DNA from: Turicibacter sp.
GTDB taxonomy: Bacteria; Bacillota; Bacilli; MOL361; Turicibacteraceae
DNA length: 13,261 nt
Direction: 5' to 3'
Assembly: GCA_030531025.1 (NCBI GenBank)
Contig: JAUMTV010000084.1
Location: 1 to 13,261, forward strand
Below are positions 1 through 13,261 of the stretch, one piece after another; position 1 is the stretch's first letter, and every line of letters starts with the position of its first letter. Below the pieces are notes generated by a model that saw only the letters and a program-made list of their open reading frames with translations, was not told where the DNA came from and made no database searches. The position numbers and the translations under genes are program-made.

Positions 1-3
1 TTT

Positions 4-30
4 CAAAGCTGACCTCGCGGAGGGAGTTTG
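4..30. other. GC-rich imperfect hairpin at window start
   Basis: CAAA, CT and CCTC on the left can pair with GAGG, AG and TTTG on the right around a GCG loop. A T-rich stretch follows. This could be the terminator of a gene outside the window to the left. The stem is interrupted and the upstream gene is not visible, so the role is uncertain. Confidence 0.25.
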
Positions 31-117
31 GATTTATTTTCATAGTAGAAACAGATAAGTATTCTACAATTGAGCTTATAAATGGAAATGAGTAAAGTCA
101 TTTCCTAATCAAGGTAA

Positions 118-310
118 CCTATAGTCCAGTTAGAAATTTTATCTGAAGAAAATTTATCTGGACTTATATAGGTACAAGATGATATTTCATCGCAATTTCA
201 TTAAATTTTTCTTGTGAGTGGGTCCCCTGCCATTTTCGAAGAAAATGTATCTAGCGCTGATAGGGATTTAAAAGTTTTTATAATGTGAAAAACTTATCTG
301 GATTTATATA
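118..310 (-). repeat. Composite copy of TIR-bounded modular repeat (family 1)
   Basis: Read on the - strand, this starts with a TATATAAATCCAG end (310-298). Next come a short A/T hairpin, one 46-bp B module (265-220) with a CATTTTC-TTC-GAAAATG hairpin, about 50 bp of unrelated sequence, a second TATATAAGTCCAG end (170-158) and the closing end CTGGACTATAG (129-119). It belongs to the same family as 7465-7611 and 13127-13261. It looks like a nested or partly decayed pair of elements. It contains no coding capacity. Confidence 0.75.
120..170 (-). repeat. Minimal family 1 element (ends plus one hairpin)
   Basis: This 51-bp unit has both inverted ends, TATAGTCCAG (120-129) and CTGGACTTATATA (158-170). 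Only the A/T hairpin (AAATTTT/AAAATTT on the - strand) lies between them, with no B module. It is the shortest form of the repeat in this window and defines its ends. Confidence 0.65.
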
Positions 311-7464: not shown

Positions 7465-7611
7465 TATATAAGTCCAGATAAGTTTTTCATATCGGAAAAC
7501 TTTTAAATCCCTAGCAATGGTCGATTGTTTTACAAGTAAAACTGCTAGGTGACCCAAGCCCTACTAATGGAGGAAACATGCTTCGCATGGTAGGTGACCC
7601 CTGGACTATAG
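7465..7611 (+). repeat. Complete family 1 repeat with two B modules
   Basis: Ends are TATATAAGTCCAG (7465-7477) and CTGGACTATAG (7601-7611), inverted copies with the core GTCCAG/CTGGAC. Inside are hairpin A (AAGTTTTTC/GGAAAACTT, 7480-7502), B module 1 (7509-7555) and B module 2 (7559-7600). Each B module starts CCCTA, ends GGTGACCC and holds an inner hairpin. No transposase is present, so it would be a non-autonomous element. Confidence 0.8.
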
Positions 7612-7622
7612 TCTGTCTTAGT

Positions 7623-7712
7623 ATTAAAGCAATCGATTAACTAAGCCTGTTTCTTAGAATGTGAAATATATTTCGCTATGTATATAGATAGAAAAATCGA
7701 AAGTATAATTTA
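7623..7712 (+). repeat. Repeat family 2, copy 1
   Basis: About 90 bp similar to 11721-11808. The best-conserved part is CTAAGCCTGTTTCTTA, then AATGTRAAATATATTTC, with ATTAAAG at the left end and AATTTAT at the right. CTAAG and CTTAG flank a CCTGTTT loop, and GAAATATATTTC is a palindrome. It has no ORF. It begins 11 bp after the family 1 element. Confidence 0.65.
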
Positions 7713-8008: not shown

Positions 8009-9595
8009 TTATTTGATTTTTTCCACCTTTGATTTTTGTGATTTTGCATAAAAGATTGTTGCGATAATCCCGATGAACATCACAAGATAAGCCATCAATA
8101 AACTTTCAGTTAAGCCAAATGCAATGTATCCAAGTGATGCAATAATAGCTGATAAAATCGCATAAGGTAATTGTGAGTTAAAGTGTGCCGCTAAGTCACA
8201 TCCAGATCCGGTTGCGGATAATAACGTTGTATCTGAAATTGGAGAGGCGTGATCTCCGAAAATCGCACCTGATAAGACAGCGGCCATGACTGGAATCATT
8301 AAATTCATATCAATAGCAGCAGCGACTGACCCAGCAATTGGAAGTAAAATTCCAAATGATCCCCATGATGTTCCGGTTGCAAAAGCCATAAAGCTTGCAA
8401 CAATAAACATCACGACAGGAATAAAGTTAGGATTAATATTAGCTGACATAATAATAGACGCTAAGTAGCCACCCGCATCAAGGGCTCCAACTAAATCACA
8501 GATTGTCCATGCTAATAATAAAATAACAATCGCTCCAACCATCGACTTCATTCCAAAGAAGAAAGCACGAATGTATTGGTTTTGTGTAACCTCACCATTT
8601 GAAACATGGCGATAAGCTAATACCATAGATACGATTAGTCCCGCTGCTCCACCGAAGCGTAGTGATGTTGATAAATTAATGTTATCTAAAATCGCAAAGA
8701 ATAAGTTGAATTCAGATTCACTACTTATTGCACCTACATAGCCCGTATACGTCATCGTTAACACTGTGACGATAATTAAAGTCAAGATCGGGATAATTAA
8801 ATCCCATACCGTTCCTTTTGATGACTCCACGTCAGATGCGTGAGCATTTGCCACTTCAGCACTCGTTAAAGAACTGTCGTGTCCATTAATAGCATCTTGT
8901 TCATACTTTTTCATCGATCCAAGATTTAAGTTATACTTAATAACAACAAAGACCATAATGACACAAGTGATCACATAAAAATGATAAGGAATCGTCTGTA
9001 AGAAAGCTGAGAATGTGTTATAAGTTGCGCCTGTACTTGCAAAGATCACAGCCATCGATCCCATAATTCCGGTTGCCCAACTTGAAATCGGAGAGATGAC
9101 ACAAATTGGAGCCGACGTTGAATCGACAATATACGCTAAACGGACACGTGAAATATTTTGTTCTTTTGCTAACGGTTTCGAGACATTTCCAACGACAAGT
9201 GCATTGAAGTAGTCATCTATGAAAATTAAAATCCCAAGAATAGCTGACGTATACTGAACGCCTTCACGTGATTTTACACGTTTAATAATGGCTTTAGTAA
9301 ACGCAGAAGCACCACCTGATAAAACGATATAAGCCGTAATCGCACCGAGTGCTAATAAGAAAAAGATAATGGATAGATTCCAATCGTTTAAAAAACCAAG
9401 CAATCCGTTTTCTTCAAAAATCAGATTTAAAAACGTGCTTACTAATGTGTGTAATGTTTGAAAAACATTGAAGTTGGCTAAAATAAAAGCAGCAGAGATC
9501 GCACCCACACTAAGTGATAACACGACACGGCGTGTGAAAATAACAAGGGCAATCGTTAAGAGTGCTGGAATTAATGCATAGATCGTTCCAATCAT
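8009..9595 (-). CDS. lysW: NhaC-family transporter, probable lysine transporter (LysW type)
   Basis: This 528-residue membrane protein with roughly a dozen hydrophobic segments belongs to the NhaC Na+/H+ antiporter family. Family marks include IFIDDYFNALVVG, DSTSAPICVISPISSWA, ATGTSWGSFGILLPI and FGDHASPISDTTLLSATGSGCD (from about residue 445). The usual family label is sodium/proton antiport. A complete lysine riboswitch in its leader argues instead for lysine uptake, repressed when lysine is plentiful. NhaC-type genes under the LYS element have been proposed as lysine transporters and called lysW. GAGGAG lies 9 bp before the ATG. It is a single-gene unit with its own terminator, and the protein looks intact. 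Substrate is inferred from regulation, not from the protein. Confidence 0.88.
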   Translation of the reverse strand: MIGTIYALIPALLTIALVIFTRRVVLSLSVGAISAAFILANFNVFQTLHTLVSTFLNLIFEENGLLGFLNDWNLSIIFFLLALGAITAYIVLSGGASAFTKAIIKRVKSREGVQYTSAILGILIFIDDYFNALVVGNVSKPLAKEQNISRVRLAYIVDSTSAPICVISPISSWATGIMGSMAVIFASTGATYNTFSAFLQTIPYHFYVITCVIMVFVVIKYNLNLGSMKKYEQDAINGHDSSLTSAEVANAHASDVESSKGTVWDLIIPILTLIIVTVLTMTYTGYVGAISSESEFNLFFAILDNINLSTSLRFGGAAGLIVSMVLAYRHVSNGEVTQNQYIRAFFFGMKSMVGAIVILLLAWTICDLVGALDAGGYLASIIMSANINPNFIPVVMFIVASFMAFATGTSWGSFGILLPIAGSVAAAIDMNLMIPVMAAVLSGAIFGDHASPISDTTLLSATGSGCDLAAHFNSQLPYAILSAIIASLGYIAFGLTESLLMAYLVMFIGIIATIFYAKSQKSKVEKIK

Positions 9596-11659: not shown

Positions 11660-11725
11660 ATGTCACGTCATGAGTGCAACAGAAAGGTTTTATGTTGGGA
11701 GTTAGTTTGAAAAGAGAGCATTAAA
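11660..11725 (+). CDS. Doubtful 21-codon ORF after the MerR-type promoter
   Basis: The ATG at 11660 follows a purine run (AAGGGGGG, spacing 12) and encodes MSRHECNRKVLCWEVSLKREH. Its stop lies just inside repeat family 2. It could be a leader peptide, the remnant of a gene cut by the repeat, or chance. Confidence 0.2.
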
Positions 11726-11808
11726 GACTAATCAACTAAGCCTGTTTCTTAAAATGTAAAATATATTTCTGTTTCTATATAGGTTAGAAATTGAAAAATT
11801 AATTTATT
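11721..11808 (+). repeat. Repeat family 2, copy 2
   Basis: Same element as 7623-7712: ATTAAAG, then CTAAGCCTGTTTCTTA, AATGTAAAATATATTTC and AATTTAT, with scattered substitutions and small gaps. It lies between the MerR-type promoter and merR and lengthens that leader. It contains no ORF. Confidence 0.65.
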
Positions 11809-11870: not shown

Positions 11871-13126
<1,256 letters not shown>

Positions 13127-13261
13127 TATATAAGTCCAGATAAATTTTCTTCATAGAAAATTTAAGCCCTACTAGCGGTAGATACATTTTCTTCGAAAAT
13201 GGTAGGTGACCCATACCCTACTAGTGGTAGATACATTTTCTTCGAAAATGGTAGGTGACCC
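13127..13261 (+). repeat. Family 1 repeat, truncated by window end
   Basis: Begins TATATAAGTCCAG, then hairpin A (AAATTTTC/GAAAATTT), then two 46-bp B modules (13167-13212 and 13216-13261) that differ at one base and are separated by ATA. Each holds CATTTTC-TTC-GAAAATG within CCTAC/GTAGG. The right-hand CTGGACTATAG end is not seen; more modules may follow outside the window. Confidence 0.8.

Follow-up and report, generated by a model that had tools for sequence, protein, structure and literature searches.

The window analysed here is a stretch of 13,261 nucleotides of Turicibacter sp. (GCA_030531025.1, contig JAUMTV010000084.1), and at position 7465 it carries a short repeat in which two hairpin units stand between characteristic ends. 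How does such a repeat move, and why does the number of its inner units vary? For BOX-type repeats, which share this build, neither point is settled in the literature consulted here. The Turicibacter repeat makes the question testable: a plausible autonomous partner exists for the outer part, its ends being almost alike, and the inner module can be viewed as a very small mobile unit of its own, with filled and empty sites in one genome. We consider it probable that two mobile layers are present, an outer element (A-C) and an independently moving unit (B) nested inside it. The case is a comparative one, and the alignments show dispersal of the repeat, the match of its ends to an IS630 element, a TA that is counted once, precise B insertions with empty counterparts, and filling of the same site across species. 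The comparisons behind the mobility of B come from five genomes of one genus, labelled G001 to G005; their placement in Turicibacter is based on locus L001 (UBA7094), part of G001, and on how they group at genus level.

The window holds five occurrences: 42-170 (-), 220-310 (-), 7465-7686 (+), 11722-11780 (+) and 13127 to the window end (+). The copy at 7465-7686 is a complete element of 222 bp with two B units and TA at both outer edges; related copies are found in G005 and G002. A profile of B-less copies matches its A module at 7465-7506 and its C module at 7601-7686. The A module (7465-7508, +) comprises the end TATATAAGTCCAG and an AAGTTTT/AAAACTT hairpin, and resembles the right end of an IS630 element. 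It is followed on the same strand by a B unit of the 47 nt hairpin type (7509-7555; R2 53.7 bits, E 6e-13) and another of the 42 nt type (7559-7600; R2 53.7 bits, E 6.1e-13). The C module (7601-7686, +) opens with CTGGACT, the pairing partner of AGTCCAG in A, and closes at the actual outer end of the element, GCTATGTATATA. A sequence-only reading had closed the element at CTGGACTATAG (7611). This was wrong; the similarity runs on to 7686 and other copies end alike, while CTGGACTATAG is the start of C, the internal stem partner of AGTCCAG in A.

The common end TATATAAGTCCAG is present as first read at 7465 (+), 13127 (+) and 170 (-); at 310 (-) the shared end is there too, but it reads TATATAAATCCAG. 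What had been described as one locus at 118-310 is actually a complete A-C element without B at 42-170 (-), with a second A and C subtype (profile match 46-170, E 1.6e-17), plus a truncated piece at 220-310 (-) that consists of A (269-310) and one B unit (220-265), its own C not being recognised. The copy at 13127-13261 (+) begins right behind the stop codon of the gene at 12275-13126 and is cut by the window end after A and two B units of the 46 nt type, at 13167-13212 (+; R2 55 bits, E 2.6e-13) and, preceded by an ATA spacer, at 13216-13261 (+; R2 57.9 bits, E 3.9e-14). The initial description of the inner units held: two diverged ones in the 7465 copy, two near-identical ones from 13127 and one at 220-265 (-), all five at E<=2e-8 with the unit model. 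Overlooked at that stage was a C-end remnant without A at 11722-11780 (+), which covers profile positions 67-126 (E 1e-5). Window positions 1-45, beyond the outer end of the 42-170 element, recur directly past the IS630 right end in G002 (locus L109) and G005 (L115); this may be either a common target repeat or a longer end variant.

The window comes from a Turicibacter-like spore former, and most of it is collinear with G005 and G002. Its genes comprise a GerX-type germination operon, PdaA, RlmD, a MerR-like regulator and an aldo/keto reductase-like enzyme, some of them scoring below curated cut-offs. A lysine riboswitch (RF00168; 9742-9914, -) lies upstream of an NhaC-like transporter gene (8009-9595). 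It is the sole Rfam match in the window at gathering scores, and the element matches no family there.

The complete element can be written A-(B)n-C, with A and C flanking a variable number of B units. The B-less form, defined from aligned copies mostly of G002 and G005, is 127 bp long; A takes up about 42 nt and C, directly after it, about 85 nt. It starts with TATATAAGTCCAG and ends with CTGTTTCTATATA. A G comes next after the outer C end in 45 of 59 elements delimited by script, and an extra TA stands ahead of the element in 31. These 59 elements are all shorter than 600 bp (the over-long spans L016 and L031 were excluded) and contain from 0 to 8 B units: 29 have none, four have one, 14 two, eight three, two four, and one each has six and eight. 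To one of the 59, the window piece at 220-310, the script assigned the C of the adjacent element. Ten more A ends have no recognisable C; L001 and L002 duplicate L003 and L005, so these represent fewer than ten places.

The B units sit between the two strands of the A/C stem AGTCCAG/CTGGACT. This stem covaries, with AGTGGCG/CGCCACT and AGTAGCG/CGCTACT as the other forms. In an alignment of 20 of the 28 B-less copies, both sides are changed in five of the 16 predicted pairs of A with its stem, and three of the five lie in AGTCCAG/CTGGACT. A B-less copy folds better than its shuffles (z -3.37); the whole window element 7465..7686 does not clearly do so (z -1.85; 9 of 200 shuffles equal it). Covariation of this kind would also be expected if the A-C elements were regulatory RNA structures of the host and not parasites, and the positions of two copies, one in an apparent terminator loop (judged by eye) and another right behind a stop codon, would suit that role. 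Against it, the elements occupy many places, one is inserted in an IS66 gene, some lie within the ends of other copies, and copies are absent from orthologous sites. We regard a host regulatory role as very unlikely.

The reading of A-C as a mobile element agrees with its distribution. Dispersal proved to be far beyond chance, with up to 55 copies in one Turicibacter genome. A covariance model of the B-less element, with at most 150 candidates scored per genome, gave 55 matches at E<=1e-3 in G002, 41 in G005, 24 in G004, one in G001 and none in G003; three genomes from elsewhere in the order likewise gave none at this threshold. A BLAST search started from the window copy, which counts partial matches, returned 63 in G002, 41 in G005, 29 in G004, eight in G001 and 12 in G003; nine of the 12 in G003 span B only. 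Among genome contigs, the 22-nt end pattern matched one Turicibacter assembly only, and it had no match in viral contigs. Plasmid and phage collections contained no similar DNA at E<=1e-5. A lone viral-contig match to the B pattern was set aside; the stretch around it is GC-rich and phage-terminase-like by eye, and the match looks like chance. Judged from search listings, the open-access literature holds no description of Turicibacter repeats of this kind.

We note one stretch (G005:C1:1545145-1553063 and G002:C1:1262303-1270256) that is about 95% identical between the two genomes, 98% in parts, against 73-91% for most other stretches aligned there. It was perhaps exchanged between species. 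In both genomes it carries A-C elements with three B units.

A transposase-carrying element with the same ends, as the IS630/Tc1-type assignment had called for, was found in two of the five genomes. Matches to PF13358 occur only in G002 (two) and G005 (eight matches at seven places). The IS630-family element is 1,179 bp long and has two overlapping ORFs, which jointly cover most of the model NF033545, both halves scoring above its cut-off. Its left end TATATAGAAACAGAAATGTATTTCAT is identical to the final 26 nt of C (26/26) at nine G005 element places among the matches listed, and three more element places match it over 32-35 nt at 91-94%. The right end, when reversed, differs from the A end by four bases after TATATA and then shares CAGATAAGTTTTTCA, 15 contiguous nt. 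Five copies in G005 are near-complete, two being identical, and others there are damaged; G002 has two copies at 91%. Neither Pfam nor DNA matching located the IS630 element in G001, G003 or G004. G004 nevertheless holds 24 A-C copies, which means that the partner there has been lost or is a different one. One IS630 copy (G005:C1:1589630-1592358) is split into two parts that share 8 bp of query range, as would be seen after the insertion of another element.

A TA duplication is supported by two comparisons, one between paralogues and one between species. At locus L067 in G002 an A-C element lies inside an IS66 tnpB gene, and its flanks, with a single TA kept between them, align gap-free over the junction to two uninterrupted paralogues. 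The window copy at 7465 obeys the same rule against G002 (72.6% identity over 146 columns). As the element ends are themselves TATATA, a longer duplication is possible in any single case. In the comparison with G005 a large stretch is missing around 7465, and no clean empty site is seen. Two G005 copies, one in an apparent terminator loop and one at a gene end that it seemingly truncates (both by eye), are absent in G002 and were not seen in G003. Several A-C copies are set into the TATA end of another copy. The matching ends, the fit of a single TA in IS66 and the empty orthologous sites bear out the earlier suggestion of a non-autonomous element at TA sites, and these alignments support A-C as a putative IS630/Tc1-type miniature element that would insert at TA.

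The inner unit has a different character. B has the form CCCTA....(G)GTGACCC, is 42-51 nt long and occurs with several stem types, the sequence of the inner stem varying between types while the pairing is kept. Of 68 distinct units, 81% form a perfect inner stem of 5 bp or more, as against 3.9% of shuffles. In the outer stem one of the six pairs switches between G-C and C-G (49 of 55 paired; shuffles average 26.5 and none reaches this value); pairing at the other five does not clearly exceed that in shuffles. Single units mostly fold no better than their shuffles. At E<=1e-6, B occurs in five of 247 genomes of the class, all five Turicibacter, in a search with stricter filters and fewer candidates scored than the one at order level. 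A weaker match to the B model (E 1.3e-6) was seen in G006, a genome of the same order outside the five.

B is also found without A or C, as insertions of 44-49 bp in IS3, IS66 and ISL3 transposase genes for which related empty copies are available. At one mid-gene site in ISL3-type genes of G003, six copies carry B and six close relatives do not, the difference being 44 bp; the alignment covers all six filled and two of the six empty copies. The filled copies are at different places, as similarity stops at the IS borders. Their ORF stops after 110-216 aa, compared with 457 and 465 aa in the two empty copies. The filled copy L147 shares 99.7% identity with the empty L155, and L139 and L151, both filled, share 99.7% with one another; fresh insertion may therefore have taken place as well as the copying of an IS that already contained B.

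In an IS3-type gene a 49-bp B follows HTDRGN in two of 13 aligned copies, one in G005 and one in G002, the other 11 being empty; 16 copies were found. Each filled copy has an empty copy of its own genome as its nearest relative. For L195 this is L198 (92%, compared with 82% to the filled L196), and for L196 it is L203 (95%). At a C-terminal site (FYH) of ISL3 genes, different B units are present in G003, G004 and G005 (45 bp). The G003 copy L021 shares 94-96% identity with empty copies and 68-69% with filled ones of other genomes, and filled copies in the main group are about equally close to filled and empty ones. In G002, B occupies IS66 tnpB and the end of tnpC, both of which have empty paralogues for comparison; a middle site of tnpC is filled twice there, and the empties set against it are diverged. 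Further B units lie in a Mutator-type (IS256-like) transposase gene, an IS30-like integrase-core gene, IS3 orfA, radC and fic, and also in an aldo/keto reductase-like gene (by eye; a short piece without a Pfam match). B keeps the reading frame in fic and at the C-terminal site of ISL3, and breaks it at the ISL3 mid-gene and IS3 sites.

From these alignments we infer repeated landing, in which related transposase genes of different species were hit by B at one position. Gene conversion could instead have produced the recurrence at one site, some filled copies at the ISL3 mid-gene site being nearest to filled ones. Two loci in G002 carry several insertions. A single IS66 tnpB gene (L067, G002:C1:236900-238500) holds both a B unit and an A-C element, and a stretch with one IS3-type element (L231, G002:C1:2346400-2350200) has three B units and a degraded fourth, at least two of them inside the genes of that element.

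Could B nevertheless be merely a module of A-C, its number shifting by slippage or unequal recombination, with lone B units as debris or carried along? Arrays give this idea some substance. In a cluster of 16 elements a near-identical C module accompanies 0, 1, 2 or 3 B units; the single B of L049 looks by eye like a fusion of two units of its relatives; and L084 has eight B units, six of them identical. Such a module would not, however, be expected as a lone, precise insertion within transposase genes that have empty copies in the same genome, or in radC and fic, and G003 has 26 B matches and zero A-C matches at E<=1e-3. We hold a mere module to be decidedly unlikely, and as the sole mechanism it is contradicted by the exact filled and empty pairs. 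The original proposal that the inner unit expands by duplication is not supported as a full account: duplication and recombination of B units probably do occur, as L049 and the cluster of 16 indicate, but B is also a precise insertion outside the element.

Independent movement of B is also suggested by its edges. The counts, made by eye, cover 21 B sites, a non-random set picked from the listed matches as apparently outside arrays and A-C elements, in which L190 repeats the tnpB site and L195/L231 and L013/L218 are paralogous pairs. AT stands right after the unit in 16 of the 21 and on both sides of [T/A]CCC...CCC in 13; C precedes the left three in 14. The filled and empty pairs at IS3 orfB, tnpB and tnpC fit a 2-bp duplication of AT, and the IS3 pair fits 3 bp too. 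AT on both sides is absent at both ISL3 sites (44 and 45 bp inserted), and the further B in the tnpB gene of L067 is preceded by AAG and gives no 2-bp AT fit. These patterns lead us to infer a preference of B for a C-AT target. The right edge of B is mostly CCC-AT, itself a C-AT target, so that the next B could insert right next to it. Of 79 spacers in arrays, 69 have a length of 3 nt, 37 of these 69 starting with AT and 19 being AAG; the spacers were made distinct by context, and overlapping loci may count some twice. The AAG spacers in some arrays point to duplication rather than self-targeting.

The enzyme that would move B could belong to a REP-type system, in which a Y1 (IS200/REP-associated) transposase acts on single-stranded hairpin DNA. 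REP sequences resemble B in being short palindromes in many copies, sometimes in arrays, and have REP-associated Y1 transposases. B is a hairpin, and Y1_Tnp genes are present in four of the five genomes. The fifth, G004, has 12 B units without a Y1_Tnp match, so no Y1 transposase was found alongside the palindrome there. The B model was run on six of the 12 Y1 loci and matched only at L239, where the B units are part of an adjacent element that has an A end (L071). Movement of the REP/Y1 type is not known to leave AT on both sides, unlike what is seen at many B units. A REP-type origin of the B insertions appears unlikely to us.

Bypassing elements are known from the mitochondria of Magnusiomyces, in the part of the account consulted (PMC5009743). 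The matching end triplets of B led us to consider that ribosomes might hop over it in the same way and that B would be neutral in coding sequence. Each unit starts and ends with one triplet (CCC, or GGG read on the opposite strand), and hopping from one to the other would bring insertions of unit length + 3 back into frame. Furthermore, no stops lie outside B in the flanks of eight filled ISL3 and IS3 copies, within the aligned part. The 44-bp ISL3 insertion is not rescued by this hop rule, though, and the gene fragment behind B in L221 ends after 77 aa. L195 shows eight non-synonymous and 10 synonymous changes against 1/11 in its empty sister L198, counts too small to show constraint, and units in intergenic arrays have no need of such a property. 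We attach hardly any weight to ribosome hopping.

The preferred reading, a mobile B nested in a mobile A-C, would work as follows. A-C would be a miniature element of BOX-like build, its ends resembling those of an IS630-family insertion sequence. The IS630 transposase, which the ends suggest as the enzyme, would act in trans to cut A-C out and insert it at TA, duplicating the TA. B would be a separately moving hairpin of about 43-50 nt, inserted by some trans-acting enzyme, preferably at C-AT and often with AT remaining at either edge. Arrays of 0 to 8 units would arise from landing at the CCC-AT edge, a self-targeting suggested by that edge, together with recombination between units. B would spread as a passenger of A-C and of the transposase genes that other insertion sequences carry.

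Among known systems, the architecture is like that of BOX of Streptococcus pneumoniae and S. suis, where A and C ends enclose a variable tandem array of B hairpins, with terminal inverted repeats and a target duplication, as given in the sections consulted of PMC3049150. The genus is another one, and the likeness is one of architecture. The proposed partner of BOX is ISSpn2, of low end similarity, whereas the Turicibacter partner is an IS630-family element with an exact end match of 26 nt. RUP of pneumococcus with IS630-Spn1, treated in the same sections, is likewise a miniature element with IS630-family-like ends; it is a simple 107-bp repeat without inner modules, unlike A-(B)n-C. By analogy, A-C appears to work like BOX and, through its partner, like RUP.

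For B alone, the nearest parallels in the literature consulted are the Rickettsia palindromic elements and the yeast mitochondrial GC clusters. The former are small palindromes, nearly half of those of Rickettsia lying in protein-coding genes, according to the parts seen of PMC10969869. They are about 150 bp long, in frame and in metabolic genes, whereas B has 42-51 nt, breaks the frame at several sites and is mostly in transposase genes among the examined sites; B is thus not a palindrome of about 150 bp lying in frame in ORFs. The GC clusters (GC42) are mobile hairpins of about 42 nt with direct repeats of 2-3 bp at their edges; unlike B, they belong to organelle DNA and are mainly intergenic, and the mechanism of their amplification is unsettled (PMC4478555, as far as consulted).

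Free B insertions with empty sites are not described for BOX in the sections consulted of PMC3049150. These do count 17 lone box modules in pneumococcus and report two different frames around one boxB type in S. suis. By analogy, both the lone modules and the shared boxB of S. suis would fit independent B units there too.

That B is a mobile bacterial hairpin of about 45 nt new to description, which homes repeatedly to conserved sites in transposase genes and regenerates its target at its edge, is a proposition for which we see an even chance. If it is true, arrays of the BOX type would be stacking places of B, and the B modules of other BOX-like repeats may likewise be independent parasites. 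The free mobility of hairpins of about 45 nt, which is known from mitochondria, may then extend to bacteria.
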